Shown here: piece by piece, positions 1,570 through 18,829 of the stretch
How positions within the stretch are numbered: the first letter of the stretch is position 1
Layout: every line of letters begins with the position of its first letter
Origin: a virus
Virus record (IMG/VR): IMGVR_UViG_3300008450_009762
Span: 1-20,724 of that record
Length of the DNA: 20,724 bases
Strand: one strand, 5' to 3'
Translations under genes and position numbers: made by a program
Notes under the pieces: generated by a model
Seen by the model: only the letters and a program-made list of their open reading frames with translations
What the model was told of the DNA's origin: nothing
Database searches by the model: none

Positions 1570-1601
1570 TAAATATAACAATATTAATTGAAATCACCAA
1601 G
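1570..1601 (-). promoter_or_regulatory. promoter candidate, CTTG-N20-TATATTTA
   Basis: The minus strand carries CTTG (plus 1598-1601) and, 20 bases further, TATATTTA (plus 1570-1577). The -7 element and spacing are identical to the promoter of the large RNA, with one mismatch in the -33 TTTG. It overlaps the stop of the glycosyltransferase gene at 1584 and would drive the gene at 1285-1524. Confidence 0.5.
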
Positions 1602-2366
1602 AAATTTGCGATTAGTTTTTGTATCGTGGTGTATATAACTTCCCCATTTGTATTTTGCATACTCATGACCTTTTGCTTCTGATTGTTGTCTCATCAAACG
1701 TTTCTCGGCAGTATCAGTTGTTGATACTGAAACGAAATGATAAAAATGACAATTCCAAGTTCTAATCATTTTTAATCCTGATAATGTACATTTCAAGAAA
1801 AAGTCCCAATCAGCAACCATTCCCATTTCATAGTTTTCGTCCCAACCACCTAAACGAATGTAATCGTATTTGTTCATAAAGATAGGTAAGGTTGAGCCGC
1901 ATTCTTCTTTTTTATCTCCTGATGCGTAATGGTAATCATGTTGCCAAAAAGCTTCCAGGTTGAACGTTTCCGGAGTACGGCCTAAATCGTATATATGAAA
2001 CTGCGTAAACATTGAAGGATACGGTTCAATTTGGTTTGGTGAAATAACCGCTCCTTCTTGCCAATCATCCAATAGAGTCGTATCCCAGAACCGAGGAAAT
2101 ACATTATCATCATTAACTATAAGAATTTTATCATATCGTGCATTATACACTCCCAAATTGGTGCCTCTACATAATCCGACATTTTCTTCTAAATTTAGCA
2201 CATCAATATGTTCAGACCATTTTTCAAGTACATGTTTGTTTGTATCATAAAACCCGTCTACAACTACTATAATTTGATTTTTATTTTGTTGTCCTTCGAT
2301 AGCTGATTGTAAACAAAGTTCTAAAGCTTCCGGTGATTTGTAGGTTGGTATTATAACTGATATCAT
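1584..2366 (-). CDS. family 2 glycosyltransferase (GT-A fold)
   Basis: This is an inverting-type GT2 sugar transferase acting in the cytoplasm on an activated sugar. The chosen start gives the typical N-terminus MISVIIPTYKSPE. It is followed by the nucleotide-binding strand IIVVVDGF (about residue 35), NVGLCRGTNLG (about 66-76), the metal-binding VNDDN (about 89-93) in the DXD position, and a C-terminal acceptor/catalytic region around GMVADWDFF (about 190-198). At about 260 residues it is a compact single-domain GT2. I chose the ATG at 2366 because it forms an ATGA overlap with the stop of the upstream gene; an ATG four codons earlier (2378) is the alternative. It is the last gene of the glycan island. 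Donor and acceptor cannot be told from sequence. Confidence 0.88.
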   Translation of the reverse strand: MISVIIPTYKSPEALELCLQSAIEGQQNKNQIIVVVDGFYDTNKHVLEKWSEHIDVLNLEENVGLCRGTNLGVYNARYDKILIVNDDNVFPRFWDTTLLDDWQEGAVISPNQIEPYPSMFTQFHIYDLGRTPETFNLEAFWQHDYHYASGDKKEECGSTLPIFMNKYDYIRLGGWDENYEMGMVADWDFFLKCTLSGLKMIRTWNCHFYHFVSVSTTDTAEKRLMRQQSEAKGHEYAKYKWGSYIHHDTKTNRKFLGDFN

Positions 2367-3049
2367 ACTTTGCTCCAATCAGTTAATGGTGATAAGAATT
2401 GTGTTTCACAATGTGTGGAGTATCCCGGTACTGCCGATACTAAATTAGACCCGCTATTCCATAAGTGTATAAATTTTGTATGATCATACCCATCATGTGT
2501 GAATTCCGGACTACAATATTTCATATGGATATCCCAATGCTTTTTAAATGTCCGCCACATCGCGGCATATGTATTACAAGTTGATGGTGTAGTTCTCCAG
2601 TGTGATGACTGTGTATGTAGAATTTTTGATTGTAGTTCATCGTACATGGGTAAAAAATACTTGTCCGGATGGTCGTACAAAGTTACGTAATCTACATTAA
2701 AACTATTGAATGCTTCTTTTAATACTAATTCCCAGTTAGGACGATGCATATAATCATCTTCAACTATATAAATAATATCATCATTTTGTAGATTTGAACT
2801 CTCAATTGCTTCAAGACAAAATTTAAAACTAGCGGCATCACTACCACCTACGTATTCTATTACCTTATCGGTATCGTCAAACTGAAAATGATGATCAGCT
2901 CTGGTACCATCTAATAGAATTGTCAAATCAACATTAGCGTTTTTAACTGAGCGATAACAATTCTCATAGGAGAACCAAGTTGGTCTCACATCTTGTTTTC
3001 TTAGATTAGCTTTGTTATAGTGTCTTAGATAAACTTTTATTTTACTCAT
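2363..3049 (-). CDS. glycosyltransferase-like protein, 228 aa
   Basis: This is probably a GT-A type sugar transferase, although its N-terminus is not a classical GT2 one. The key visible motif is YIVEDDYMHRPNW (about residues 94-106), an EDD that would serve as the DXD metal site, preceded by a segment that could bind the nucleotide (LTILLDGT, about 42-49). The conserved-looking segments TCNTYAAMWRTFKKHW (about 157-172) and PGYSTHCET (about 208-216) resemble a family seen in phage and marine bacterial glycan clusters. The gene overlaps both neighbours (8 bases with the GT9-like gene and an ATGA with the GT2 gene), so translation is probably coupled. The substrate is unknown. Confidence 0.7.
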   Translation of the reverse strand: MSKIKVYLRHYNKANLRKQDVRPTWFSYENCYRSVKNANVDLTILLDGTRADHHFQFDDTDKVIEYVGGSDAASFKFCLEAIESSNLQNDDIIYIVEDDYMHRPNWELVLKEAFNSFNVDYVTLYDHPDKYFLPMYDELQSKILHTQSSHWRTTPSTCNTYAAMWRTFKKHWDIHMKYCSPEFTHDGYDHTKFIHLWNSGSNLVSAVPGYSTHCETQFLSPLTDWSKV

Positions 3050-3713
3050 GGCATATCCATTTATTATTTATTAATGTTTTTATTGGAGATAAATCTTTAT
3101 CTAAGGGGGTTCTTGGATATAAATGTAATGGAGTTTTTTCTAATCTCAAAGCTTCAATTACAAAAAATATTGCTGTTGAGACAGTATGTATTTCGTCTGC
3201 TTGTTCTAATACTCCGCACCAATCTAATAAAGTAAAACCATCAATATATTCTTGATAGATTATTTTTAAATCTGTTTGAAGTTCAATATCTATTTTATAA
3301 TTATATTCTGGGCCCGCGAAGTTATTGTTAACAAGTATAAATTTATCTTCTGAATTTATATTGAGATATTGTTTTAATTCTTCTTCTTTTTCTTTATTTC
3401 TAGTAAAACTTAAAGTTCTCCATAATTCAGTATCTGCTTCTAGTAACATATATTTAGCTTCCATACAATCTTCAGCTTGTGGAACTAAAGAATGTGCATG
3501 TTGTAGAGGTACTTCTATATAGTCATTATATTTTGTAGAATCAAATTCAGAAGATTTAACAAATGTTAAATTATCTATGTTTATATAATCTTTTATCCAA
3601 TAATAATGATCAACAACGGGCCAAACAGCATGTTCAATATCTAAATTAGCAACTAGTGGAGATAAAAATAAAATATCTCCAATACCAAAAAGTTGATTAA
3701 TTATTACTTTCAT
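3042..3713 (-). CDS. GT9-like (heptosyltransferase-type) glycosyltransferase, 223 aa
   Basis: This protein resembles a shortened GT-B fold enzyme of the GT9 (heptosyltransferase) type. The N-terminal FGIGDILFLSPLV (about residues 9-21) matches the usual GxGDxxxxxP start of that family. The later FILVNNNFAG (about 124-133) and the C-terminal TVSTAIFFVIEAL (about 177-189) occupy the places where GT9 enzymes bind the nucleotide sugar. It is short (223 residues against roughly 320-350), so one domain may be reduced. Placement in an island with heptose-kinase-like and nucleotidyltransferase genes makes a heptose donor plausible, but this is inference. It overlaps the downstream gene by 8 bases and the upstream GT8-like gene by 17. 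Confidence 0.6.
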   Translation of the reverse strand: MKVIINQLFGIGDILFLSPLVANLDIEHAVWPVVDHYYWIKDYINIDNLTFVKSSEFDSTKYNDYIEVPLQHAHSLVPQAEDCMEAKYMLLEADTELWRTLSFTRNKEKEEELKQYLNINSEDKFILVNNNFAGPEYNYKIDIELQTDLKIIYQEYIDGFTLLDWCGVLEQADEIHTVSTAIFFVIEALRLEKTPLHLYPRTPLDKDLSPIKTLINNKWICHE

Positions 3714-4452
3714 AAATTTTATTTAGATGTTGTTTTACTTCTTTATTAAATAAATTGAAATCTAATTTAGTTGCTCCATGACCGCCTCCATGATGTAATA
3801 CTTTAACTTTTTTATTATTAAGTATTAATTCATTTTCTATTAGTTGAATATCCATCCAACTATCCCAATGTGTGGTATCTCCATATAAATTAGATATACC
3901 ATAATAAACATTAGATTCTATTGGATCTATGATTTTTGTTTTCCAATCTTTAGTCATAAGATTTAAAACTGTTTGTTCTTGAAACGGCATCTGATTTCCA
4001 AATTCAGTATTATTTACCATCCATTGCTCTACAAATGCTTTATTAGTGATAGCTACTAATCCAGCATTAAGATATTTTTGAGTATCCAATCCTGGGTTTG
4101 TTATAGGATTATCTTTACCCGCTTTATTAAAATCATTATTATTTCTGACCCCTATAATATCAAATTCTAAATTAGATTCATCAATTAATTCATCTAATTT
4201 TCCTACAACCATTGAATCAGCATCAAAATGAACCACCATATCATATTGATCTATTAGTTGGTATGATACAAAAGGATGTACTGTATTCCAATTTACATTA
4301 GGATGAATAGAAAATAATTCATTTAATTGTTTATCTCCAAAACAATAAAAATCAATTTCTGGGTGGAAATACTTTAAAGATTGAGATAATTTATGAGCCC
4401 CGACTGAATAATACCAATTATCTGATACGTGGGTACAAAAAGCAACTTTCAT
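3697..4452 (-). CDS. GT8-like glycosyltransferase A, 251 aa
   Basis: This is likely a retaining GT-A transferase of the GT8/glycogenin type. It begins MKVAFCTHVSDNWY and has the metal-binding VVHFDADSMVVGKLDE motif (DAD at residues 77-79). It also has a YLNAGLVAITN segment (about 135-145), which in GT8 enzymes contacts the acceptor, and a C-terminal VLHHGGGHG (about 225-233) in place of the usual HxxGxxKPW metal/phosphate site. I chose the ATG at 4452 because it forms TAATG with the upstream stop; an in-frame ATG at 4476 would add eight unlikely residues. It is a clear paralogue of the gene at 4925-5692, with the DAD motif at the same residue number. Confidence 0.75.
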   Translation of the reverse strand: MKVAFCTHVSDNWYYSVGAHKLSQSLKYFHPEIDFYCFGDKQLNELFSIHPNVNWNTVHPFVSYQLIDQYDMVVHFDADSMVVGKLDELIDESNLEFDIIGVRNNNDFNKAGKDNPITNPGLDTQKYLNAGLVAITNKAFVEQWMVNNTEFGNQMPFQEQTVLNLMTKDWKTKIIDPIESNVYYGISNLYGDTTHWDSWMDIQLIENELILNNKKVKVLHHGGGHGATKLDFNLFNKEVKQHLNKIYESNN

Positions 4453-4928
4453 TATCGCTTTAAATTTACATAGCAAGGGCCGTTATAATTAAACACCTCA
4501 TCTAATGTTTGATTAATATTATCCATCACCGGCCAGTATGATTTAACATTTTTAAAAGAATTTAAAACTATATCTTTATCATCTTCAGCCCAATGACTAA
4601 AACCATCATGTGAATAATCTTTATCTCTACCCGATCCTACTAATTTGATATTTAATTTTTCTTTATTAATATAGTTTCGAATTAATTCAAAAGGCCTATA
4701 TAATAAAAAAGGTGTAATGGAATATGCTATTGGTTTTTTACCTTCATAAGCAGCACCGATGCATAGTCCTATCATTAATTGTTCTGATGCTCCACAATTA
4801 ATAAAGTTATTAGGATATTTTTCTTTTATATTATCAAATAACCCATACCCTAGATCTGCAGTAATTAATATGATAGAAGAATCTTGTTCTATTTTTGATT
4901 CTAAATAATTTACAAATGTTTTTCTCAT
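4452..4928 (-). CDS. transketolase pyrimidine-binding domain subunit (B half), 158 aa
   Basis: This is the pyrimidine-binding half of a thiamine-diphosphate transketolase, which moves two-carbon ketol units between sugar phosphates. Visible motifs are ITADLGYG (about residues 22-29), FINCGASEQLMIG (about 42-54, with E49 in the place of the Glu that activates the thiazolium cofactor), and YSITPFLLYRPFE (about 69-81). SHDGFSHWAEDD (about 106-117) contains His residues like those that contact the substrate. It stops after this single domain, whereas free transketolase B subunits are usually about 300 residues with a C-terminal domain. The partner TPP-binding half is encoded at 6410-7030, two genes away. 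The product sugar is unknown; sedoheptulose-7-phosphate is an attractive guess given the heptose-like genes nearby. Confidence 0.8.
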   Translation of the reverse strand: MRKTFVNYLESKIEQDSSIILITADLGYGLFDNIKEKYPNNFINCGASEQLMIGLCIGAAYEGKKPIAYSITPFLLYRPFELIRNYINKEKLNIKLVGSGRDKDYSHDGFSHWAEDDKDIVLNSFKNVKSYWPVMDNINQTLDEVFNYNGPCYVNLKR

Positions 4929-5692
4929 GTTACTATATTATATATAAAATTAACAACTTCTTGTGAAAACAATTCATTTGGGTGTGGTTTATTAACACCG
5001 CCTCTAGCAAAATGATATGCTTTTACAGGTTTTCCATCTAATTCTAGTTGATTATTATTAACTACTATTTGATTTTCTCTACCTAAAGATGCGCACCCAT
5101 AATAACAATTAAAATCTGAGTGGGTATATTCATAATGGCCGTCTAATACTTTTACATTAAAAGGTAACATATGACATAATAAATTTAAAATATCATTTTC
5201 TTTATTTCCAAATAAATCCGAGTAATTTAAACTAGCATATTCATATTGATCCCAGAATAATTTAGATGTACTTGCTATTAAACCACCCTGTATATATTTT
5301 TCATATGGTACTAGAACATTTGATGAAAATACACCGCATGTATTTGCAAATGTATTTGTTCCGATTCCTGAATTTAACCAACTATTAAAATTAGTAGGTA
5401 TTGCTATATCGTAGTCCCCTAATAAAATTTCATCCATTCTACCAAAAACTAAATGATCTGCGTCAATATTTACTACTAAATCATAATCATTATATAATTT
5501 TTTGGCAAATGTTGGCTTCGAATTATAAAAGTTAAGTTTTGGATTAGTCGCAAATGTTTCATCAATTTCTTTTTGTCCAAATACCACTAAATCAATTTCT
5601 GGATGGAAATGTTTAAACGATTTAATAAACTCATCGGTTCGACATCCGTGATAATGTGAATCGCCAATTATTATATAAAATACCGTTTTCAT
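4925..5692 (-). CDS. GT8-like glycosyltransferase B, 255 aa
   Basis: This is a paralogue of the GT8-like enzyme at 3697-4452. Shared features are FHPEID followed by an FGxK motif (about residues 29-41), YDLVVNIDADHLVFGRMDE (about 70-88, IDAD at 76-79), YIQGGLIAST (about 133-142), and a C-terminal YHFARGGVNKPHP (about 227-239) that is closer to the canonical GT8 HxxGxxKPW site than in its sibling. It probably transfers a sugar from a nucleotide donor with Mn2+ help. Its stop overlaps the transketolase B start by an ATGA. The two copies bracket that gene, which suggests a tandem duplication with later insertion or a shared functional unit. Confidence 0.75.
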   Translation of the reverse strand: MKTVFYIIIGDSHYHGCRTDEFIKSFKHFHPEIDLVVFGQKEIDETFATNPKLNFYNSKPTFAKKLYNDYDLVVNIDADHLVFGRMDEILLGDYDIAIPTNFNSWLNSGIGTNTFANTCGVFSSNVLVPYEKYIQGGLIASTSKLFWDQYEYASLNYSDLFGNKENDILNLLCHMLPFNVKVLDGHYEYTHSDFNCYYGCASLGRENQIVVNNNQLELDGKPVKAYHFARGGVNKPHPNELFSQEVVNFIYNIVT

Positions 5693-5700
5693 TTTTGTTT

Positions 5701-6402
5701 TTAGTTTTTAATTTGTTTATAACAATATAACCCATCTGGACCGAAATGTTTAATTTCGTAGCCATATTTAATAAAGATCTGTTCAAATATCGCTCTTTGT
5801 TCTGTATAGCCAATTCCACCAACTTCGTGAAACTCAATTAAAATTTTCGTTACTTTATCGCTAATCGATTTTATAATATCTTCATTGAGTGCAATAGTTT
5901 CAGATCCTTCGATATCCAGCTTAATAAAATCTACACGCTTTAGGCCCGACTTCTCGATTAAATCTGGAATGGTAATACTATCAACCATAAAATGATTACC
6001 ACCTCTATTAATTAGAGAATTCATTGTAGTGTTAGAAGTAAATGTAAAAAATGGTATTTTACCAGTTTCATTAGATATTGCTGCTTGGATTCGTTCAATA
6101 TTACTAAATTTACTAGTTAACTGTTCATTTAATGTAAAATGACTTGGTGTTGGTTCTACTGTTATAATTCTATCAGCCCACGGGGTAACATGAATAGCAA
6201 ATAAACCTATATTACCACCTAAATCTAAAATTATTTTATCATTCTCTGTTAAATATTCAGAATACCAAGATAATTCATTAAATTGATGTAAAATTTCGTT
6301 AGTGCAGTTAGTTGAGTTATTAAAATGTTCAATTAACTCATTAGTGTTTAATTCGATAGTATATAAACTTCCATCGATAAGTTTTTCTTGTCTTGTTTCC
6401 AT
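5701..6402 (-). CDS. FkbM family SAM-dependent methyltransferase, 233 aa
   Basis: This protein transfers a methyl group from S-adenosylmethionine, probably to a sugar hydroxyl. It shows the class I Rossmann fold glycine motif ILDLGGNIGLFA (about residues 58-69), an acidic strand end in IITVEP (about 79-84), and the diagnostic FkbM signature FIKLDIEGSE (159-168) followed by ILIEFHE. The length is normal for FkbM enzymes. It sits inside the sugar island between the transketolase A half and a GT8-like gene, so O-methylation of the glycan being built is the likely job; methyl capping of phage or host surface sugars is known for this family. The leader is A-rich with no Shine-Dalgarno site. Confidence 0.88.
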   Translation of the reverse strand: METRQEKLIDGSLYTIELNTNELIEHFNNSTNCTNEILHQFNELSWYSEYLTENDKIILDLGGNIGLFAIHVTPWADRIITVEPTPSHFTLNEQLTSKFSNIERIQAAISNETGKIPFFTFTSNTTMNSLINRGGNHFMVDSITIPDLIEKSGLKRVDFIKLDIEGSETIALNEDIIKSISDKVTKILIEFHEVGGIGYTEQRAIFEQIFIKYGYEIKHFGPDGLYCYKQIKN

Positions 6403-6409
6403 TTTTATT

Positions 6410-7030
6410 TTATTTTATTTTCATATTATTATTAGCCATAGTGTAATGAGCTGCTAATGAAGTTTCAAATTGAATAATTTCATTCACATCTGTATAATGA
6501 ATATTAATTTCAGGTAAAAATAACTTTAATCGTTGAGATAATTTATCTGAATCAACCGGTTTATATGCGGCCCATCCGTTTATATTAGTATGTATTTCAA
6601 TATTTTTAATTTGATTTTCATCAATAAATCTTAATGCTTCCCAAATACTTCCTTCAGCACTTTCTCCATCAGAAATTGTACAATATACTTTTATATTAGG
6701 ATTAGCTAAAGCCATTCCTGTTGCTATTGTTACTCCTAAACCTAAACTGCCTGTAGAAACATCTATAAAATTTTCTAAATCTCTTTCAGGATGAATTCCA
6801 TGAGTTTCAAGTAAATGCTCAGCATCAACCCCATAAAAATGTTCTAACACAACATATAAAGCTAACCCAGCATGGCCGTTAGATAATACAAATTTATCTT
6901 CAGGTCTTTTTTTAGAATATATTTCATAAATTATAGGTAAAGCAGTAAAACAACTTCCCAAATGGGATAATTTATGTTTAATACTTATTTCTAGTATTCT
7001 TTTATTTAGTTTATTTATATTTTCTTTCAT
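6410..7030 (-). CDS. transketolase TPP-binding domain subunit (A half), 206 aa
   Basis: This is the thiamine-diphosphate-binding half of a split transketolase. Motifs in family order are KLSHLGSCFTA (about residues 20-30), VLSNGHAGLALY (48-59, corresponding to SKGHASxALY), GSLGLGVTIATGMA (94-107), and the cofactor-binding SDGESAEGSIWEA (120-132) ending with TNINGW (148-153). The usual GDGE reads SDGE here, which may or may not weaken cofactor binding. Length (206 aa) is a little short against about 270 for free A subunits. Its partner is at 4452-4928, so the halves are separated by an FkbM and a GT8 gene. The start overlaps the end of the epimerase gene by 20 bases, suggesting coupled translation. 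Confidence 0.82.
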   Translation of the reverse strand: MKENINKLNKRILEISIKHKLSHLGSCFTALPIIYEIYSKKRPEDKFVLSNGHAGLALYVVLEHFYGVDAEHLLETHGIHPERDLENFIDVSTGSLGLGVTIATGMALANPNIKVYCTISDGESAEGSIWEALRFIDENQIKNIEIHTNINGWAAYKPVDSDKLSQRLKLFLPEINIHYTDVNEIIQFETSLAAHYTMANNNMKIK

Positions 7031-7847
7031 AAATTTCTTTTAAACCAGTTTCTAAAGTGTATTTTGGATTGAATTTATACTTTGATTTAGCATATGTTAT
7101 ATCAGCAACCCAATTTAGCGTATCATAATTATTAAATATATTATTTATTTTGGTAGGTTCCAAATTAGACTTGTAAATATTTTTTATTATGTTAAAAACT
7201 TCTAAATTTGAATATTGAACTCCACTTCCAAAATGTATCACGTCGCCTTGTATAATTTCTTTTTCGGAATGCAGTACTGCAAATATACCATCAATAAAAT
7301 CATCGATATGTATAAAATCATGAACTCCTAAACTTATTTTTGAAGTTATATTATTTTGAAAATTCCTAAATAATGTCGGTATAAGTCTAGCGCTCGGTTC
7401 ATACAACCCGTACACGCTAAACGGCCTAACTGTAGCTATAGGCTTATTATACTCCGTTGCATATCCCTTACAAAGTAACGTACTGGCGCCTTTGGTTGAT
7501 TCATACATCGTTCTAGGTTTCAATACATCTAGCTCACTAATTGGTTTATTTGTAGCTCCATATTCAGAAGATGAACCTATATTTACGAATCCTAGATATC
7601 CAACGTCCTTTGTAGCTTCCAACAACCAATATGTCATTACTACATTCGAATTAAAAGTTTTTGATGAATCCTTTATCTCAGCCGCACAATGTATTATATA
7701 GTTCGGTGCAAATTGTTTAATTCGTTCAGGCAATGTTGAATCCGTTTCCCACTCTCTACCAACTAACAAAAGTTCATTTGTGCGTTGTAGCCGTTCAACA
7801 ATTGATTTACCTATAAATCCTGTATGTCCTGTTATTAGATACTTCAT
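7011..7847 (-). CDS. NAD-dependent sugar epimerase/dehydratase (extended SDR), 278 aa
   Basis: This is an extended short-chain dehydrogenase/reductase acting on a nucleotide-linked sugar. The NAD(P)-binding GHTGFIG lies at residues 7-13, IIHCAAEI at about 51-58, NIGSSSEYGA at about 89-98 (catalytic Ser), and the catalytic YESTKG at 115-120 (Tyr and Lys). RPFSVYG (about 136-142) is the typical substrate-domain segment. Length is slightly below the usual 300-330. Candidate reactions are 4-epimerisation, 6-epimerisation of an ADP-heptose (HldD role) or 4,6-dehydration; sequence alone does not choose. It sits between a methyltransferase and transketolase A, with a 4-base ATGA overlap with the former and a 20-base overlap with the latter. 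Confidence 0.88.
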   Translation of the reverse strand: MKYLITGHTGFIGKSIVERLQRTNELLLVGREWETDSTLPERIKQFAPNYIIHCAAEIKDSSKTFNSNVVMTYWLLEATKDVGYLGFVNIGSSSEYGATNKPISELDVLKPRTMYESTKGASTLLCKGYATEYNKPIATVRPFSVYGLYEPSARLIPTLFRNFQNNITSKISLGVHDFIHIDDFIDGIFAVLHSEKEIIQGDVIHFGSGVQYSNLEVFNIIKNIYKSNLEPTKINNIFNNYDTLNWVADITYAKSKYKFNPKYTLETGLKEIYERKYK

Positions 7848-8341
7848 ATACGTTCACCCATTACCATAAATGCATTATTTAAATCTATTCCTGATTTGAA
7901 TATATTCGCATAACCGCGGTCTTTCATGTAGTCTGCAATAATATCAGGAGTAAATACATTAACGTGTTTTCTATTATTCCATGGGCGCCAATATACTTGT
8001 GAGTAGTCAGGTAAATATAAAAATAATACACCACCACTTCGTAATTTTGAAGTCCAATAATCCAGAACATCGACCCAATTTGGTATGTGTTCAAGACAGT
8101 GTGAACTGAAAACATAATCTAATTCGTCGAGATTTTCTGGAAAGTTCGTTGCACTAAAATCATTTATTTCCGGGTCAATTGGTATCGCACCCGGAAATGT
8201 CCATTCTAATCTATTACAACCTACGTCGACTCCTACACCAGTACATACATGTTTTGCGAACGGTATAGCAAACTGCGCCGCGTTTCCTTGTGTTTGAAAT
8301 TCCGGATAATTGTTTGTTTTGTATTGTATTGTCTTTATCAT
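7844..8341 (-). CDS. class I SAM-dependent methyltransferase, 165 aa
   Basis: This compact Rossmann-fold methyltransferase starts at MIKTIQYKTNNYPEF. Motif I is GVGVDVGCNRLEWTFPGAIPID (about residues 36-57). YVFSSHCLEHIPNW (about 76-89) is the typical post-II segment with its C/HxLEH pattern, and LRSGGVLFLYLPD (about 101-113) is motif III. I chose the ATG at 8341, ten bases past the upstream stop at 8352; a start at 8407 would overlap the kinase gene by 56 bases and add an unlikely basic leader. The substrate is unknown. The sugar-island context favours a nucleotide sugar or glycan, as for similar small methyltransferases next to PfkB and cytidylyltransferase genes. Confidence 0.82.
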   Translation of the reverse strand: MIKTIQYKTNNYPEFQTQGNAAQFAIPFAKHVCTGVGVDVGCNRLEWTFPGAIPIDPEINDFSATNFPENLDELDYVFSSHCLEHIPNWVDVLDYWTSKLRSGGVLFLYLPDYSQVYWRPWNNRKHVNVFTPDIIADYMKDRGYANIFKSGIDLNNAFMVMGERI

Positions 8342-8351
8342 ATATTTTTGT

Positions 8352-9092
8352 TTACGGTGTCGCAACGCCTCTTTTTCTAACAACCTTCGCTGCCATAGTA
8401 TTTCCAAAATTTATCGATACCGTTACGTCATTAGTTTCAACATATTTCAGTGCAAATGCAGATGTAAATGTGTCACCCGCTCCGCTAACATCTATCGTTT
8501 CGACCGGTTCTACAGTCTCAAATATTTGCTCTAAGTACTTAGTACCTCTCGAACCTAATGTAACTATTAATTTATCCGATAATGTCAGATGTCTATTTTG
8601 ATACGCTTCTTGTTCGTTAAGCTTTACAAAAGTAAAATTTTCTATAATTGTATCGGTTAGTAGTCTTTTAGTATCCAATACTGAAGTAGTGCCTAACTTA
8701 GCGAGCACCGGTAACTGCTCGTCAGATAAAAAGCCTTTCTGATAATCGCTTACTATAACCAGGTCATAGAAATTTTTCTGTAATTGTTCAATAGACTCTA
8801 AACTACATTTTGATATATCGTCCTTTTCCTCATCTATTCTAATAAATAAATGATTACTTTTCTTATCAACATATCTAATCTTTTTAATTACATCGGATTG
8901 ATGTACATGCGTAATATATGCCGTTGAATCAATACATTTAATATTATTAACGACGTTGCCGGACATACCATCGTTAATCGTAGTATATATCGGTTTTACA
9001 ATAGGTACGGGCCCTTCTGGACACAGTCGTGTAGTATCGCAATAAATAAACTCATCTATACACGTTTCGCCAATAACAAGTATTTGTTTCAT
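8352..9092 (-). CDS. PfkB-family sugar kinase, heptose-7-phosphate kinase-like (HldE N-domain type)
   Basis: This is a ribokinase/PfkB fold sugar kinase. It opens with VIGETCIDEFIYCD (about residues 6-19), has RLCPEGPVPIV (22-32), which matches the RxSPExPVPV pattern of heptose-7-phosphate 1-kinases, and SDYQKGFL (115-122). VSGAGDTF (202-209) carries the catalytic Asp at about 207. At 246 residues it is shorter than the roughly 310-residue HldE kinase domain, with reduction in the lid region. The stop/start overlap (ATGA) with the cytidylyltransferase gene recreates the two halves of HldE as separate proteins. The most likely reaction is phosphorylation of a heptose or related sugar phosphate at C1. 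The exact sugar is inference. Confidence 0.85.
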   Translation of the reverse strand: MKQILVIGETCIDEFIYCDTTRLCPEGPVPIVKPIYTTINDGMSGNVVNNIKCIDSTAYITHVHQSDVIKKIRYVDKKSNHLFIRIDEEKDDISKCSLESIEQLQKNFYDLVIVSDYQKGFLSDEQLPVLAKLGTTSVLDTKRLLTDTIIENFTFVKLNEQEAYQNRHLTLSDKLIVTLGSRGTKYLEQIFETVEPVETIDVSGAGDTFTSAFALKYVETNDVTVSINFGNTMAAKVVRKRGVATP

Positions 9093-9478
9093 CGTAAAAA
9101 CATATTTTGTAATATCATGGATGTAGATTTGTCGGGTATTCTTTGAAAAAATCTAACCGTATCAACACAATCACTACCAATAATATTTTGGTCTATATAA
9201 TCACTACCGACGACTATCATTTTACATTTGTGTGTTTTTATTGCCATAATCAATTCATCATTTGTATCAAAACTCACAACGCGTTTAACATATTTGATAG
9301 ATTCTAATACGCCGATTCTATCGGTTAGCGTATTAAATGGCCTTAAGTTACCTTTATTCTCCATAATACGACGATCAGAATCGAGTCCGACGATTAGATC
9401 ACCAAAACTACTAGCATATTGTAATAGTTTTATATGTCCTATATGTATTATATCAAAACATCCGTTTACCCAAACCAT
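9089..9478 (-). CDS. cytidylyltransferase-family sugar nucleotidyltransferase (HldE C-domain type), 129 aa
   Basis: This is a small nucleotidyltransferase that activates a sugar-1-phosphate. It has the GCFDIIHIGHIKLL motif (6-19) with the HIGH signature at 12-15, LIVGLDSDRRI (about 28-38), NLRPFNTLTDR (about 44-54) and IVVGSDY (about 88-94), all in the order seen in HldE/RfaE C-terminal domains and HldC. The length matches the isolated domain. It partners the PfkB kinase (ATGA overlap), so together they would turn a sugar 7-phosphate or similar into a nucleoside-diphosphate sugar; ADP- or CDP-heptose are the known products of relatives. No GmhA isomerase or GmhB phosphatase is visible in the window, so host enzymes or genes outside it would be needed. 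Confidence 0.87.
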   Translation of the reverse strand: MVWVNGCFDIIHIGHIKLLQYASSFGDLIVGLDSDRRIMENKGNLRPFNTLTDRIGVLESIKYVKRVVSFDTNDELIMAIKTHKCKMIVVGSDYIDQNIIGSDCVDTVRFFQRIPDKSTSMILQNMFLR

Positions 9479-9494
9479 AAAAAATCATATTTCA

Positions 9495-9926
9495 TTATTC
9501 TCTATTAAAATCATCATCTATTCTAACGATATCAGATTCTTCGCATTTATCACCGAACTGAATTTCTATTATTACTAAATCCTTCATTCCAATATTGTGA
9601 ACTCTATGCAAATCACCGCGTTCTATGTAAAATGTATCATTAGCCGATGTTGGTACAGTTTTTGCATTTATGGTTACTCGGCCGGAGCCTTCTAATACAC
9701 TCCAATGTTCACGTCTATACCTATGGTATTGATAGGAAAGTCGGTAACCGGGTTTAACTACAAAGCGTTTAACTTTATATGTAGGCGTAGCCAATAAAAC
9801 TTCAAAATAACCCCAAGGTCGTTCTTCATAGAGTTTTTCATTACTCATCAATGCTCTAATAGCAGAACCTAAAGTTTGATCATTAGGATTATCATCAATA
9901 ATTTTCTTAATTTCAGATAGTGTCAT
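9495..9926 (-). CDS. mannose-6-phosphate isomerase type II-like cupin, 143 aa
   Basis: This is a single cupin domain like the C-terminal domain of bifunctional ManC/AlgA proteins. The pattern RPWGYFEVL is followed by YKVKRFVVKPGYRLSYQYHRYRREHW, with the metal-binding His residues and Arg. WSVLEGSGRVTI, then YIERGDLHRVHNIG and IEIQFGDKCEESDIVRIDDDF complete the family's usual order. The N-terminal ~45 residues are extra and helical. Known relatives interconvert fructose-6-phosphate and mannose-6-phosphate; some stand-alone cupins instead act on nucleotide sugars. I chose the ATG at 9926, which overlaps the upstream stop by 14 bases; an ATG at 9956 would add ten residues and overlap by 44. No GMP partner domain is present. 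Confidence 0.82.
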   Translation of the reverse strand: MTLSEIKKIIDDNPNDQTLGSAIRALMSNEKLYEERPWGYFEVLLATPTYKVKRFVVKPGYRLSYQYHRYRREHWSVLEGSGRVTINAKTVPTSANDTFYIERGDLHRVHNIGMKDLVIIEIQFGDKCEESDIVRIDDDFNRE

Positions 9927-10527
9927 AAAATGAGTTTTGCTGTTCCTGCTTTTCAATACTCTTCACGTGTTCGAGTGCATACTCATCAGGTATAAATGCA
10001 AATTTTTTGAAACCTGTAGGTACTTCGTGAACCGCGTTTTGCCACATAATATAAGAATTTCTTTTCATGATTCTTAATTGATTGTCAGGAAAATTTACAA
10101 ATCCATTTTCGTTTAATCGCCAATTCCATTTAGCAATATGTTCTGGAGTAATGCCTATAACAGTATTTTCTCGAGGTATAGCATACAAATCAACATCTGG
10201 ATTGGCTGATATAATTGCTTTCAAATTAACAATTAATTCAGGTTTAACCATTTCATCAGCATCAATATTAAATATGAAATCTCCTGAACACTTACTAGAC
10301 AAGTAATTTTTTTGATTAGCAAAATTGTTATTCAAAGGGTTCTTGTATAACTTGATGTGTTTATTTTTACTGTAATCAGTTAAAATTTGCAATGTAAGTT
10401 CATCTGTTGAATAATCGTCTACTACTACAATTTCATCTTGAGGGTCTTTGTATTCCAGAATAGTTTGAAACAATCTTTCGATACATTCACCTTCATTATG
10501 TGTTAGTATTGCATATGATATTTGCAT
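9913..10527 (-). CDS. family 2 glycosyltransferase (WaaE/KdtX-like), 204 aa
   Basis: This is a compact GT2 enzyme. It shows ISYAILTHNEGECIERL (about residues 3-19), DEIVVVDDYSTDE (about 31-43), NFANQKNYLSSKCSGDFIFNIDADE (the acceptor-site and DXD-bearing strand, about 68-92), and a later FPDNQLRIMKR with WQNAVHE (about 146-167). This order is typical of the WaaE/KdtX subgroup, which adds a hexose to the LPS inner core. At 204 residues it is somewhat shorter than those enzymes (about 250), missing the C-terminal tail. The start ATG at 10527 touches the stop of the upstream GT4 gene, so translation is probably coupled. Acceptor unknown. Confidence 0.88.
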   Translation of the reverse strand: MQISYAILTHNEGECIERLFQTILEYKDPQDEIVVVDDYSTDELTLQILTDYSKNKHIKLYKNPLNNNFANQKNYLSSKCSGDFIFNIDADEMVKPELIVNLKAIISANPDVDLYAIPRENTVIGITPEHIAKWNWRLNENGFVNFPDNQLRIMKRNSYIMWQNAVHEVPTGFKKFAFIPDEYALEHVKSIEKQEQQNSFYDTI

Positions 10528-11828
10528 TATTCTACTTTTTTGAGTTTCGGTAATTCGATTTTCTTTAATTGCGGCAACACAAGTTTTTGTGCTTTAGGTG
10601 CAATAGGTACTTCATTCAATATGGTTTCCAATTTGGATTTCATTAATTCCCAAGAAAAATTGTCTTTCATATATTTAGGCATTTTTCTTGACTTTTCCAA
10701 ATAAGTATTGTAATTTTTATATACGTCCTTCAACACACCAATAAAATAACCGTAATCAGCAGTGAACCATTGCGATTCTTGCAAAATCACTTTATCCCAC
10801 GCTGCACTAGGATGAACGTTTGTCAATTGACCTGGTATTAAGGTTACAAAGTCTTTATTTAAAAAGTCGATGTGTCCTGACCATGCAGTTGCTATAATAG
10901 GTTTTCCTGACATAGCCGCTTCAGCTAATGGTCTACCATAACCTTCTCCTTTCGTTAAAGACACATGTGCCTTAACTTTTGGATGCATATACAAAGAGTT
11001 CATTTCAGATTCATTCATATCACCATGCAACAAATAAATGTTAGGAAGTCTTCTAGCTTTTACACTATCGCGAATGGCTGCAATTTTCCTGAGTATATCT
11101 AGCCTATCCATATGACTAAATGTTCCGCCACTAGATTTCAATATCAAAGCGGGTGCATCAGTCACGTTTTTAAATGCTTCTAAAAATGTTTGAATCAACA
11201 TACCAACATTTTTTCTGTCTTCTCCCATATCACCTTGCATCCAATGACCGACATATAAAAATGCAAATTGCTCTGGTATACTAGCCAATTCATCAACAAC
11301 TGTTTTACTCAATTCTGATGTTTTATTGTATACACTAGTATCTACTCCTTCGAACAATACTTGAATAGTTTTCACTAATTCTAGCATACCTTCTTTTTGC
11401 TTGGTATTGGTATTAATTTGGTCGTATTTCGTGGCAGTGAATACATTTTTAGAATGTTCGCTCGGTACAATAATCATATCCATTTTATTAGCACCTATCA
11501 ACCAATCAGATGAGCACATAGTGGTTTCAATACCTGCTGTAACACCGATATTATAGTTACCAATAGGTTGAAATTCATTAGGTACAGATACTTGAATAAA
11601 AATATCTGGTTTGGTAGTCAACTGCGGAACCAATCTACTAATTAAATCATCATCAACTCCTTGAGTTAAAGCATTGATAGGTGTACCGCCCCATCGCGTA
11701 CTAATAATTTGTACTTGATATTTATCCAATGCAATTATTGCACGAATTAAATCTCTTGAACGTGAACCATAACCACTTACTGTAGCTACGGGTGCAACGA
11801 TTGCACATATAGGTTTATTGTTTTCCAT
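10527..11828 (-). CDS. family 4 glycosyltransferase (GT-B), 433 aa
   Basis: This is a retaining GT-B fold transferase. The N-terminal domain opens with ICAIVAPVATVSGYGSRSRD (about residues 7-26), the donor-domain start is FAFLYVGHW (about 191-199), and the key GT4 catalytic signature is KGEGYGRPLAEAAMSGKPII (about 291-310), with the E-x7-E type acidic pair. A C-terminal tail of alternating LPKLKKIELPKLKKVE type, rich in Lys (about 415-433), is unusual and may contact membranes or a partner. The gene is 9 bases downstream of a second GT4 gene, with which it shares the general plan but little obvious sequence. The sugar donor cannot be read from the sequence. Confidence 0.88.
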   Translation of the reverse strand: MENNKPICAIVAPVATVSGYGSRSRDLIRAIIALDKYQVQIISTRWGGTPINALTQGVDDDLISRLVPQLTTKPDIFIQVSVPNEFQPIGNYNIGVTAGIETTMCSSDWLIGANKMDMIIVPSEHSKNVFTATKYDQINTNTKQKEGMLELVKTIQVLFEGVDTSVYNKTSELSKTVVDELASIPEQFAFLYVGHWMQGDMGEDRKNVGMLIQTFLEAFKNVTDAPALILKSSGGTFSHMDRLDILRKIAAIRDSVKARRLPNIYLLHGDMNESEMNSLYMHPKVKAHVSLTKGEGYGRPLAEAAMSGKPIIATAWSGHIDFLNKDFVTLIPGQLTNVHPSAAWDKVILQESQWFTADYGYFIGVLKDVYKNYNTYLEKSRKMPKYMKDNFSWELMKSKLETILNEVPIAPKAQKLVLPQLKKIELPKLKKVE

Positions 11829-11837
11829 AACTTATTT

Positions 11838-13214
11838 TTATGTTGTATATAATGTAAATCTTTTACGCGGAGTCCAATTAGCAAATGCTGTATTCATGTA
11901 TTCAGTAAATGCTGAACACATACTTTCTGCACTAAGCATTACATCAGGTTTAAGAAAATGTTCTCTACCAGCCAATCCTCTACCTTTTCTTTCTTCATAA
12001 CCCAATTCATATACTTCCATTATGCGGTCGGCAGCTTCTTTATATGATACAATGTCGTCCCAAATATATGGGGTAGGTATAGAACCTTGCATTGTCTGTA
12101 CTTTAGGAAACACCGGGAATGCCCATTCACCACAATCAGTGTATTTGCCGTCATTATTTGTTCCCCATACATCTGAATAATCGTCTGCTGTCAAATATGT
12201 ACCATCAGCCTTTTTAAATCCACATTGGTCTTGTAATCCACCTGTAACATTAACAATAATAGGCGTACCTGCCATAACAGATTCAGCAGTACCTAAACCA
12301 AATCCTTCGTTTGAAGCTAAATTGATAGTAACATCAGACAAATTGTATAGAAAATTCAATGTTTTAGGTGATACCTGATTGGCTGAAAATATTACATTGC
12401 ACTCAGGCATTAATTCTTTCCAGGTAGCATACAAATCAGTACCATTATCGTCTAATGGTTGTGTGTGCATAAGTAATACACATTTGTCAGCAGCTTCTTT
12501 AGGCAACATTTTTCTAAAATGATTGAACGCCAACATAACATCACTAGTATGCTTTCTACGAATATTTCGTGCATTATACAATACTACAAATGCATTATCA
12601 GCTATACCTAATGCTTTTTTATGTTCCAGCATCTCTTTGTATTCAGGAGCATCCGGAGTAATAGGATAAAATGTTTTATGATTGATACCATGAGGCAAAT
12701 ATTTTAACTGCCAATCTTTGTATCCCTCTCCTGCTAACACCGTTTGATGTATTGCATTACTTTGTTTTGATATACCTAAAATCATATCACACGACATATA
12801 AAATGGTTTGTTCCACATCGGAGCAGGCCAATTGTCCCAAATTGCTAAATAGTAAATTGGAAGTATTTGTCGTATCTCGTGCTCAGCAGCATACAACCAA
12901 CCCCAGAATCTAGGGTCTGTGAAATGTAATATACAATCAGGTTGTTCAATGTTAATAAGCTGGCGTATTACATCCATATTACCATAGCCATCACTCGGAT
13001 AAATTTTTACCGAGGCATCAGGAATACCAAATTCTTTTTGTATTGATTCACTTAAATCGATAGCCTTGCCGGCTTCAGGATGCTTGATAGCAGCGCCTAA
13101 TTGTACCCAATCAAATTGTTTTAAAGTACCTAATACCAATTCTCGGGATACTACACCTATTCCCGAATTTAATCGCATATCATCGGAGAGTAGTAAAATT
13201 TTCTTTTTCTTCAT
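11838..13214 (-). CDS. family 4 glycosyltransferase (GT-B), 458 aa
   Basis: This is the first gene of the glycan island in the direction of transcription. It begins with a basic MKKKKILLLSDD and a SGIGVVSREL turn (about residues 17-26) that would bind the acceptor. The second domain opens with FVVLYNARNIRRKHTSD (about 209-225), and the catalytic signature is SNEGFGLGTAESVMAGTPIIV (about 307-327), matching GT4 with its two Glu residues. Length is larger than average owing to insertions between about 330 and 390. The leader (13215-13253) contains TTATATTTATA, similar to the -7 elements of the local promoters, but I see no TTTG at the right distance. A GT4 pair of this kind could build the base of the glycan. 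Confidence 0.88.
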   Translation of the reverse strand: MKKKKILLLSDDMRLNSGIGVVSRELVLGTLKQFDWVQLGAAIKHPEAGKAIDLSESIQKEFGIPDASVKIYPSDGYGNMDVIRQLINIEQPDCILHFTDPRFWGWLYAAEHEIRQILPIYYLAIWDNWPAPMWNKPFYMSCDMILGISKQSNAIHQTVLAGEGYKDWQLKYLPHGINHKTFYPITPDAPEYKEMLEHKKALGIADNAFVVLYNARNIRRKHTSDVMLAFNHFRKMLPKEAADKCVLLMHTQPLDDNGTDLYATWKELMPECNVIFSANQVSPKTLNFLYNLSDVTINLASNEGFGLGTAESVMAGTPIIVNVTGGLQDQCGFKKADGTYLTADDYSDVWGTNNDGKYTDCGEWAFPVFPKVQTMQGSIPTPYIWDDIVSYKEAADRIMEVYELGYEERKGRGLAGREHFLKPDVMLSAESMCSAFTEYMNTAFANWTPRKRFTLYTT

Positions 13215-16234: not shown

Positions 16235-16468
16235 TTATCCTTCTTCGTAGTGATTAACGGATTTGATTATTGAAGCATCATGGTTTAAAAACAATTCGTA
16301 TTGTTCCCATGTACCCTTTATTATGTAAGTATAATAACCGTACGGTTCATCAAATTCATGAAGCAACTCCATATCGGGCTCAGTCACATTATTTACAGAA
16401 TCAAAAATGTCCATAAACTCGGCAGAATCCTCAGGATTAATACCAATATAAAATTCAATAAAAGTCAT
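16235..16468 (-). CDS. hypothetical acidic protein, 77 aa
   Basis: I do not recognise this acidic protein. It has an N-terminal beta strand (FIEFYIGI), a helix with several Asp and Glu (about residues 11-40), a YGYYTYIIKGTWEQYELF segment (about 43-60) that looks like a strand-turn-helix, and a short tail. It resembles small ACT-like or ferredoxin-like folds only in general pattern. The gene lies between the tRNA-Arg-like element and the DUF1937-like gene, and could be read through from the promoter of the large RNA or from its own promoter. Confidence 0.65.
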   Translation of the reverse strand: MTFIEFYIGINPEDSAEFMDIFDSVNNVTEPDMELLHEFDEPYGYYTYIIKGTWEQYELFLNHDASIIKSVNHYEEG

Positions 16469-16489
16469 ATGATAGTATAATGTTATGAT

Positions 16490-16512
16490 AGTAACTAATA
16501 GATATAGTTACT
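16490..16512 (-). terminator. inverted repeat just below the tRNA-Arg-like element
   Basis: A perfect 8-bp inverted repeat, AGTAACTA / TAGTTACT, with a 7-base loop lies 5 bases past the 3' end of the tRNA-Arg-like element on the minus strand. It is AT-rich and not followed by a U run, so it is a weak terminator candidate. A processing or 3' end protection hairpin of the large RNA transcript is an alternative. Confidence 0.35.
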
Positions 16513-16516
16513 TTAG

Positions 16517-16591
16517 TTGCGGGAATGGGATTCGAACCCATGTCATTGAGCCTCGGAGGCTCAGCTGGAACCAACTCCAGTCCATCCTGCG
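16517..16591 (-). tRNA. tRNA-like element, possible tRNA-Arg (CCG)
   Basis: The 75-base element has a perfect T arm (ATGGG, loop TTCGAAT, CCCAT), a perfect 5-bp anticodon stem (TGAGC / GCTCA) with a 7-base loop CTCCGAG (U33 then CCG, decoding CGG Arg), and a 5-base variable loop. It also has a D arm with a CTGG/CCAG stem and GG-containing loop. The 3' acceptor strand TCCCGCA is clear, but the 5' strand (CGCAGGA) pairs imperfectly, with C-A and A-C mismatches, and four instead of two bases separate it from the D stem. CCA is not encoded. It follows directly on the large structured RNA and may be processed out of it or be an integral tRNA-like domain. Confidence 0.5.
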
Positions 16592-17527
16592 ATGTGTATA
16601 ACCTTGAGATTACAGGTTTTAACGGCTGAACTTTAAAGGTATTATTTATTCCCCTCGTATCCAGAGACTTTTGATCTCTATTCAACCAATGCCGATTAGT
16701 TAGACTAATCACTTCTTGAGGTGCAAGTTAATCTCTAACTAGTCAATCTGTTCAACTCTGCCGAGCTAATTCATCCTTGCGGGACTACAAACCTTTCATT
16801 AAAATCACATAGGCCTTGCGAGCTTCTGTGGCAACCAACTGCTGGTTACTATGTAGGCATCTTTCTTCGGATTCGATGACTTACACCTGGTGCACACTTG
16901 GGCTTTATTTGTAGTTTTCGTTAGATTACATAAAATCATAGCTTTAGTGCTGTGGAATTTAGTGAGGGTAGCGGTGCACCTTAGACTCTACCAACTTTTG
17001 ATCGGGAGAATATCTAACTACCTTCTGAAACATCCCTGCTTCCATATTTCACGTCAACTTCATTCGTAAACCTTGGTAGGTTTTTTGAACGGAATCTATC
17101 AGCACCACCTGTGTTAGATTCTTGATTTTCATCTTCAAGCCAACATTGATATTGAATAACGCAATAATACACTCGGACAAGTACATTTTTTGCATGTATT
17201 CTACACGTTATTTTTATTGGACTTCCGCCCTCAACTCACCTATCCACATAGGCAAGTCACACTATCATTCTCCCTACAGTGTCACCCTCAGTACTAAAGA
17301 TTATGCGATATCGTGCTCGTTTACTCGAGCTAATTTCTTAGCCGCAATTGTATTTAGCATTACAATCACTTTATCCTACTTTCGTAGTTTATTTTTAGGA
17401 ACTAGTCCATGGACTATAAACGGCCCATTGATTATTTTCTAACACATTTCAAATTTGAAATTATCTCCTTTAATTTGTGATTCGAAAACAATAAATTACA
17501 ATATGTTAAAGAACTATTTTCTGCTTT
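16592..17527 (-). ncRNA. large structured noncoding RNA (GOLLD/ROOL-type candidate)
   Basis: About 0.93 kb without a convincing protein gene lies between a strong minus-strand promoter (17534-17565) and the tRNA-Arg-like element. On the minus strand it folds locally into many perfect hairpins. These are CTAC-GAAA-GTAG (17376-17387, a GNRA tetraloop that exists only in this orientation), CGAGC pairing (17315-17330), AACCA/TGGTT (16833-16847) nested inside ACATAG/CTATGT (16807-16854), and AGAGA/TCTCT (16663-16679). There is also a switch-like region at 16694-16741. Size, phage context, tRNA adjacency and ornate structure fit giant phage RNAs of the GOLLD or ROOL class; that name is inference, not a match I could compute. 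Its 3' part shares sequence blocks with the RNA at 17709-17922. Start is placed from the promoter; ends are approximate. Confidence 0.6.
16601..16617 (-). repeat. conserved hairpin block, copy 1
   Basis: On the plus strand ACCTTGAGATTAC is shared exactly with 17718-17730. Here ACCT pairs with AGGT to form a stem around the conserved loop. It lies 9 bases above the 5' end of the tRNA-Arg-like element, in the same relative place as copy 2 above tRNA-Leu. Confidence 0.7.
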
Positions 17528-17533
17528 ATATTA

Positions 17534-17565
17534 TAAATATAAGGAAACTTTTTCAATTTTCCAAA
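17534..17565 (-). promoter_or_regulatory. promoter of the large RNA, TTTG-N20-TATATTTA
   Basis: The minus strand carries TTTG (plus 17562-17565), a 20-base spacer, and TATATTTA (plus 17534-17541). This equals the Bacteroidota -33/-7 pattern with the same spacing as four other sites here. Transcription would begin near 17528 and enter the large RNA. It lies just below the tRNA-Leu-like gene and an unusual 13-base homopolymer (17574-17586). Confidence 0.7.
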
Positions 17566-17597
17566 TTTTTACATTTTTTTTTTTTTGGATAAAAAAG

Positions 17598-17708
17598 TGG
17601 TCAGGACAGGATTCGAACCTGTATGTCGTATCGCACCTCATTTATTAGCATTCTTGAATCAACGACTATCCCAAATGCCTTAGCGTCTACCAATTCCGCC
17701 ACCTGACC
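17598..17708 (-). tRNA. over-long tRNA-Leu-like gene, probable CAA anticodon
   Basis: The acceptor stem is a perfect 7 bp (GGTCAGG / CCTGACC) with discriminator A. The D arm reads GGCGGAATTGGTAGACGC, a typical leucine D arm, and the T arm is ACAGG-TTCGAAT-CCTGT. At 111 bases it exceeds a normal class II tRNA by about 25. A GGCAT/ATGCT stem would fit the anticodon stem, enclosing a 23-base loop that ends TTCAAGA, i.e. U33-CAA with purine 37. Removing 16 bases would restore a normal TTCAAGA loop. The extra piece also contains GTCGT, which can pair with ACGAC in the variable region. CCA is not encoded; a T6 run follows the 3' end. Confidence 0.65.
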
Positions 17709-17922
17709 GGGTTCCCCACCTTGAGATTACTGGTGAGTAGATTTTACCGGTTTAGTTTTCTTGAAAACAAACACATTAGTGTCTTACCACATAAAAATAT
17801 AAATCACACTACTGGGAGGGTTTGTGCTGTCCCTTTATTCCCACGAGACTGGCGTTTAAGGATGTCCAGTCCAATACCCTATCAAGTTTAAATGAGACAT
17901 TGACAAGTCTTCTGAGTATCTC
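17709..17922 (-). ncRNA. shorter structured RNA module upstream of tRNA-Leu
   Basis: This 214-base gene-free stretch runs from the stop of the membrane protein gene to the tRNA-Leu-like gene. On the minus strand it contains a GACTGG/CCAGTC hairpin (17847-17871), a GTTTT-CAAG-AAAAC hairpin (17756-17769), and the CACC/GGTG hairpin with the conserved loop (17717-17735). Five blocks, CCAAT, hairpin, TTTATTCCC, TTTTACCGG and ACCTTGAGATTAC (plus-strand forms), recur in the same order near 16601-16690 in the large RNA. It therefore looks like a reduced relative of the 3' domain of that RNA. It has no promoter of its own that I can see and is likely read from the promoter at 18841. Confidence 0.5.
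17717..17735 (-). repeat. conserved hairpin block, copy 2
   Basis: CACC pairs with GGTG around the conserved TTGAGATTAC loop (plus-strand form). The 13 bases 17718-17730 equal 16601-16613 exactly. It ends 9 bases above the 5' end of the tRNA-Leu-like gene. The changed stem bases in the two copies keep the pairing, which supports an RNA structure. Confidence 0.7.
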
Positions 17923-18204
17923 TTACTCATTTTTCGAGCCAGCTTTTGTTTCGTTGCGTTTTTTAAATTCCACCGCACCGGCTGTTCCTATAAAAGAACC
18001 AATTAAAGCAGCAATAAATAATCTACTGTCGGATAACCAATTAACTGTAGTAAATGCAGCAAAGCATAGAATTATACAAGACCAAAGACCTGCCGAAATC
18101 GTTTTTCGTTCGTCTACTTTTATGAAGTAGTAGGTCCATGCTATATCAGCAAGAATCATTGAACACATTACCAGAATAAATTTGATATAAAAAGTAAATT
18201 CCAT
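17923..18204 (-). CDS. small integral membrane protein, 93 aa
   Basis: This protein has three likely membrane segments (about residues 6-29, 37-56 and 60-80) separated by short loops, the first of which is charged (KVDERK). It ends in a basic and polar tail (FKKRNETKAGSKNE). I do not recognise the family. The SFIGTAGAVEF segment (about 70-80) looks like a tight helix packing motif. The gene is 25 bases downstream of the conserved phage protein at 18230-18829 and directly precedes the RNA module and tRNA-Leu, so it is probably in the same transcript as they are. Confidence 0.75.
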   Translation of the reverse strand: MEFTFYIKFILVMCSMILADIAWTYYFIKVDERKTISAGLWSCIILCFAAFTTVNWLSDSRLFIAALIGSFIGTAGAVEFKKRNETKAGSKNE

Positions 18205-18229
18205 TAGTTTGTATTTTTATTTGTGCAAA

Positions 18230-18829
18230 TTAGTCCCACCATCCACGAATGCCTGAACCATTAAACTGACTATCAAAATCAATTTCTTTATCAAACTTTG
18301 AATAGTCTTGTCCTTTGATAATATCCCACAATTCATCCCATTCTTGTTCCCCAATTTCTCTCGCTCTAGCAAATACTTTTGCATTATGAGCTTTTTCTTC
18401 CGGACTCTCCTTATCAATTAATCGAGAACAGTCTGGATGGTCTGCAGACGGTTCAAATTCCCAATCATGTAATATTAAGTCACCCAATTCTTTTTCGGCC
18501 ATATCAATATACAAATCATCATTGTAATTTTTAATGAGTTGTATCGCCCTACGCATCTTAGCGACCTTTTTCAGTCTAGAATGGTCTACTTCAATACCGC
18601 GAGTTTCAATATTGTTAGCCATATCAGTCAATCCTATTTCCATAAACATAAGAGTGCCGTGATGATCAAACCAATAATGGTTGTATAAGGCTTTTTTAAA
18701 TTTCCATATGTTTTTGAAAAATCTAGGCAAATCATATCTGAGAAATTTGTATACTTTGTATGGTACGGTATTCTCCCAACACACACCTTCTAGCCATTCA
18801 TAAAAAGAATTTGTAAGTTTAAATATCAT
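18230..18829 (-). CDS. conserved phage protein of unknown function, 199 aa
   Basis: The protein begins with a segment rich in aromatic residues (about residues 1-55), including YDLPRFFKNIWKFKKALYNHYWFD, followed by a helical core with MANNIETRGIEV and KVAKMRRAIQLIKNY (about 68-101) and an acidic C-terminal half (about 105-199). The order of an aromatic and basic RFIKN-type helix, a core, and a RAI-x-L segment is, as I recall, a recurrent feature of a hypothetical protein in large myophages, with no proven function. There is no membrane segment or catalytic motif that I can identify. It has its own promoter (18841-18872). Confidence 0.75.
   Translation of the reverse strand: MIFKLTNSFYEWLEGVCWENTVPYKVYKFLRYDLPRFFKNIWKFKKALYNHYWFDHHGTLMFMEIGLTDMANNIETRGIEVDHSRLKKVAKMRRAIQLIKNYNDDLYIDMAEKELGDLILHDWEFEPSADHPDCSRLIDKESPEEKAHNAKVFARAREIGEQEWDELWDIIKGQDYSKFDKEIDFDSQFNGSGIRGWWD

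Follow-up and report, generated by a model that had tools for sequence, protein, structure and literature searches.

A phage GOLLD RNA appears to be transcribed behind a boxA antitermination signal like that of bacterial rRNA operons

The virus record IMGVR_UViG_3300008450_009762 of IMG/VR (20,724 nucleotides [nt], analyzed in full and called here the window) contains at positions 16592-17527 a region in which an earlier note, made from the sequence alone, had proposed a highly structured minus-strand RNA and no credible protein gene. This region is a known type of giant phage RNA, GOLLD, and, judging from more than 100 relatives, its transcription appears to make use of the boxA antitermination signal of bacterial ribosomal RNA (rRNA) operons. 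The whole model, in which the GOLLD of a probable Bacteroidota phage would be expressed from a host-type promoter, protected by boxA antitermination and assembled into a cage, was assigned a probability of about 0.8. A broader reading was also considered likely, namely that GOLLDs in Bacteroidota phages, as well as those of one other clade, use boxA antitermination borrowed from the host, and that the same phages carry an undescribed RNA of ~210 nt (R1), usually located between transfer RNAs (tRNAs), with a covarying pseudoknot and an (A)ATCTCA loop like the tertiary hub of GOLLD. Neither the boxA leader nor R1 had been noticed in the earlier note.

The search with the Rfam 15 models detected GOLLD (RF02032) on the minus strand with 259.2 bits, against a gathering score of 150, covering model positions 1-416 of 416 (E ~1e-73). 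This model spans only the conserved 3′ domain, and the preceding ~400 nt form a 5′ domain outside it, so that the structured core reaches 826 nt (17426-16601), above the 800 nt typical of GOLLD. The phage origin (a virus record with phage gene families) and the tRNA-Arg located 9 nt downstream are likewise as in other GOLLDs. All of the open frames within and around the region were of 106 amino acids or fewer and had GTG or TTG starts, and the folding energy of the minus-strand RNA was -231.8 kcal/mol, against -206 ± 6.6 kcal/mol for 20 shuffles (z = -3.9), in agreement with both proposals of the earlier note. A protein-coding region was therefore rejected, since the frames are not credible and the RNA covariation described below is strong. 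A prophage origin was also rejected, because the exact 5′ motif had no match among 84,980 bacterial and archaeal species (one genome each).

GOLLD RNAs build protein-free RNA cages; that of env-38 was solved by cryo-electron microscopy as a 14-mer, and the expression of other GOLLDs rises during lysis (PMC12286853). The RNA of the window resembles env-38 in its 3′ domain and in its separate 5′ domain with a GAAA loop, and differs in that its leader carries a Bacteroidota-type promoter and a putative boxA; its cage assembly is expected from the family.

A nucleotide search showed that two uncultured phages (635 and 642 kb) share the 5′ part, and each of them also has a complete GOLLD 3′ domain. 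A 28-nt block (17394-17367) around the GAAA hairpin, chosen from the alignment of these huge phages, was used to scan IMG/VR and was present in at least 119 contigs. A GOLLD match was obtained in 45 of the 50 block-bearing contigs searched, 44 of them above the cut-off; several of the block matches lay near a contig end. When the 5′ domains of 50 sequences were aligned, 82 of the 103 predicted pairs showed double compensatory changes, and the consensus energy was -88, compared with -2 in column-shuffled alignments. The proportion of paired cells (96%) is flattering, because the consensus fold was derived from the same 50 sequences; this does not affect the double changes or the shuffle control. 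The GAAA hairpin had been predicted on the minus strand at exactly its present position, and its stem covaries. Relatives found through the neighbouring kinase gene carried GOLLD in just 1 of 19 cases, below the cut-off. As a separate observation, one relative (L131, contig G098, 21475-21576) has a second, partial GOLLD match (model positions 306-415, 30.8 bits) ~230 nt downstream of the full GOLLD.

Two elements stand out upstream of the core, where the relatives otherwise share little: a Bacteroidota-type promoter and the motif GTTCTTTRA. In the window this promoter reads TTTG-N20-TATATTTA, which agrees with the minus-strand promoter suggested earlier and adds its type by comparison; the transcript would start at roughly 17520-17530. 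The same promoter form precedes GOLLD in the relatives and the 16S gene in Bacteroidota rRNA operons. The set of leaders was picked by a motif inside the RNA, independently of GTTCTTTRA, and this motif was found in 62 of 63 k-mer-non-redundant leaders of the GOLLD clade to which the window belongs, while 0.44 (maximum 3) were expected from dinucleotide shuffles and 1.0 (maximum 3) from random stretches of the same contigs. A promoter lay at most 75 nt upstream of the motif in 53 of these 62 leaders, and the spacer between them folded below -3 kcal/mol in 41 of the 53, a count that has no control set.

The 17-mer of the window, AGTTCTTTAACATATTG, with A or G allowed at one position, was then scanned against one genome per species of the same 84,980 species, and at least 120 matching places were obtained. 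The start motif of 23S followed in 58 of the 120 matches listed; in about half of them no rRNA was recognised by the short patterns used, and some are probably chance matches. Five examples analyzed with cmscan had 23S shortly downstream and tRNAs upstream, as part of Bacteroidota rRNA operons. A first check for 16S downstream was apparently negative, because the 17-mer sits mostly before 23S; GTTCTTTRA was also present in two 16S leaders. In bacteria, boxA binds NusB-S10 and shields rRNA transcription from Rho (PMC10931766), and the boxA of a Legionella array of clustered regularly interspaced short palindromic repeats (CRISPR) is GTTCTTTAAAA (PMC7862264). As in the boxB-boxA-boxC leaders of rRNA operons and in boxA-led CRISPR arrays, a promoter, often a short hairpin, and GTTCTTTRA stand before a long untranslated RNA. 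The differences are that the putative boxA heads here a phage structural RNA and not rRNA or CRISPR RNA, and that no boxB-like hairpin is obvious in the window. The conserved consensus between promoter and untranslated RNA, together with its recurrence in rRNA operons of the phylum presumed to contain the host, points to a boxA of the rrn type, and the proposed antitermination role of the leader is well supported by this comparison. No earlier report of boxA with GOLLD was found in the open-access papers searched. Separately, boxA with the Bacteroidota-type promoter was also seen heading phage tRNA arrays (L259, L459, L471, L491, L513, and others), at 0.27 per kb inside the array zones versus 0.10 outside.

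In a second GOLLD clade, which comes from phages rich in tRNAs, the promoters are of the TTGACA (sigma-70) type and are accompanied by a short hairpin and a boxA of the clade's own. This boxA reads CGTTCTTTAAAAAGT or TGCTCTTTAAAAATT in L115, L116, L121, L125, and L126, has one base altered in L123 and L124, and was not seen in L111, L122, and L127. These leaders bear on an alternative that was judged unlikely, in which the RNA is a GOLLD but GTTCTTTRA serves its clade as a conserved element of RNA structure or of transcription start, not as an antitermination boxA. The motif does sit just downstream of the promoter, and its proposed antitermination role rests on comparison. However, its distance to the core varies among relatives from ~38 to 140 nt across sequence that cannot be aligned, the same element occurs in rRNA operons at a site remote from promoters, with tRNA before it and 23S after it, and the second clade has boxA behind different promoters.

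Under the model of a boxA-protected GOLLD, the host-type promoter would initiate minus-strand transcription, and boxA, lying close to the transcript's 5′ end, would recruit the NusB-S10 complex of the host. By analogy with rRNA, this loading would keep RNA polymerase from stopping early on the long untranslated RNA, for example through Rho, and a full-length GOLLD would be obtained, with a core of ~830 nt in a transcript of ~930 nt. The RNA would then fold, with the 5′ domain forming a cap and the 3′ domain a ring, and probably assemble into a 14-mer cage like the GOLLD solved by cryo-electron microscopy. The tRNA proposed by the earlier note at the other end of the region was identified as tRNA-Arg(CCG). 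A tRNA begins 11-21 nt past the GTAATCTCA loop in the window and in part of the relatives, and in the window RNase P probably generates the 3′ end by cleaving at this adjacent tRNA-Arg. The most likely role would be that of an abundant RNA compartment of lytic growth, sheltering or sequestering some cargo.

Several observations weigh against this model. GOLLD is present with no recognisable boxA in Phosso (Sinorhizobium) and in X1 and XacN1 (Xanthomonas), and of the two huge phages one carries GTTCTTTGA and the other has no match at the usual place. Several relatives have T-runs after the GOLLD 3′ end instead of a tRNA. The GOLLD of a Lactobacillus prophage was reported as dispensable for phage production, according to a statement quoted in PMC7567579. 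Furthermore, the phage host is probably a member of Bacteroidota, a phylum assigned from the form of the promoter and boxA only. The idea of a boxA in every GOLLD was rejected, given that it was not recognised in some second-clade leaders or in the named phages. Being present in some GOLLD clades and unrecognised in these phages, the putative boxA is thus a property of particular clades, with hardly any variation in that of the window.

That the window holds a decaying copy, no longer made or not assembling, was regarded as very improbable. The tRNA-Arg has acceptor mismatches, the neighbouring tRNA-Leu-like element lacks an anticodon, and the score is lower than in most relatives (270-332 bits); against this, the match clears the cut-off by a wide margin and contains few broken pairs, and the promoter, the putative boxA and all the main blocks are present. 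Finally, the earlier note had offered a divergent GOLLD, a ROOL-type RNA or a new class: GOLLD stood, by its score and the covariation of the 5′ part, and strong divergence did not. A new class or a ROOL, which is also a large, cage-forming phage RNA near tRNAs (PMC12286853), would fit the size and the tRNA neighbourhood taken alone, but was refuted by the end-to-end GOLLD match; neither ROOL, by sequence or structure, nor another family matched this RNA at E values up to 5. Up to the same E value, 16400-18250 gave no match to the models of ROOL, RNase P, tmRNA and group I/II introns.

Table 1. Features of the window, all on the minus strand, and examples of R1 in other contigs.
Feature	Position	Strand	Remarks
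tRNA-Arg(CCG)	16516..16591	-	9 nt after GOLLD 3′ hairpin; two acceptor-stem mismatches
GOLLD 3′-terminal hairpin, loop GTAATCTCA	16601..16617	-	taken to be P27/L27; naming by comparison with PMC12286853
GOLLD 3′ domain	16601..17025	-	full-length RF02032 match
GOLLD 5′ domain (cap domain of solved GOLLD), start at GGGCCGTTTATAGTCC	17026..17426	-	huge-phage alignment and covariation
GAAA hairpin CTACGAAAGTAG	17376..17387	-	within conserved 28-nt block; stem covaries
Putative boxA antitermination element AGTTCTTTAACATATTG	17499..17515	-	between promoter and RNA core; leader and rRNA-operon comparison
Bacteroidota-type promoter TTTGG..TATATTTA (TTTG-N20-TANNTTTR)	17534..17565	-	sequence, position, relatives
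tRNA-Leu-like element, 111 nt	17598..17708	-	abnormal middle, no anticodon found; Rfam tRNA 38.6 bits
R1, structured RNA absent from Rfam 15	17714..17930	-	just upstream of tRNA-Leu-like element
R1 3′ hairpin, CACC-AGTAATCTCAA-GGTG	17717..17735	-	loop same as GOLLD 3′ hairpin
R1 elsewhere	L253 405-613; L261 9139-9348; others	-	~210 nt, between tRNAs

The second structured RNA, R1, had no family match in Rfam 15. The scan of IMG/VR with its 3′ hairpin detected ~50 contigs with a conserved element of ~210 nt, and a covariance model plus a second scan by the other end yielded 87 matches, 74 of them non-redundant. The R1 of the window scored 158.9 bits against the model of 31 sequences, its own sequence being among them. 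R1 has a 5′ hairpin and a pseudoknot in which loop 2 pairs with a downstream strand. At one register 84 of 84 pairs were formed across 21 distinct sequences, compared with 23 to 76 of 84 at the five other registers tried; with re-dealt partners, all four pairs were formed on average in 11.8 of 21 sequences (maximum 16), against the 21 of 21 observed. Almost every member has retained (A)ATCTCA in the 3′ hairpin, the stem of which shows compensatory changes. The full GTAATCTCA was present in 15 of 44 members picked without the loop motif, and most of the remainder deviate from it at the initial two or three bases. In the window this GOLLD-type terminal hairpin keeps a spacing of 9 nt to the tRNA-like element, as at the GOLLD 3′ end. 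The reading of the hairpin as a decayed GOLLD was rejected, because the GOLLD model gave no match and the fold of the R1 family is different.

ARAGORN placed a tRNA 4-8 nt downstream of R1 in 42 of 71 cases and one ending at most 1 nt upstream in 33 of 74, with many isoacceptors; release of R1 by tRNA-processing enzymes is a natural inference. R1 and GOLLD were found together in 11 of 46 contigs, and R1 may act together with GOLLD or accompany the processing of tRNAs. No named relatives were found, the INPHARED matches being limited to the tRNA end and to 12-15% of the query. Two further observations were made: the first hairpin of R1 in the window overlaps the stop codon of the open reading frame 17923-18204, and in L264 a freshwater-1 RNA (RF02979; 295-356, minus strand; 71 bits against a gathering score of 72) lies directly upstream of R1.

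The tRNA-Leu-like element of the window was not called as a tRNA by ARAGORN. It belongs to a family (L240, L265, L454, L471, and others) with 89 distinct members of 80-142 nt, 14 of which ARAGORN recognised; the acceptor, D and T arms are constant, and the middle is unrelated and very variable in length. These elements are perhaps anticodon-less tRNA mimics or insert-bearing tRNAs. The GOLLD region is flanked by phage genes for a deoxynucleoside monophosphate kinase, a PD-(D/E)XK exonuclease, a NinI-like phosphatase and glycosyltransferases. Sugar-related genes form a long run at 1584-13214 on the minus strand (by look, glycosyltransferases, a transketolase-like frame and others), a large burden for a piece of phage DNA.

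The cage structure of GOLLD has been solved, and boxA would give a direct handle on its function. The conserved boxA implies that the phage needs a full-length and probably abundant RNA, as with rRNA, and ties GOLLD to a host factor that can be manipulated, NusB-S10. Moreover, R1, with its 74 non-redundant members, its position mostly between tRNAs and the hub loop of GOLLD, would be a new RNA family, possibly connected with GOLLD or with the processing of tRNAs.
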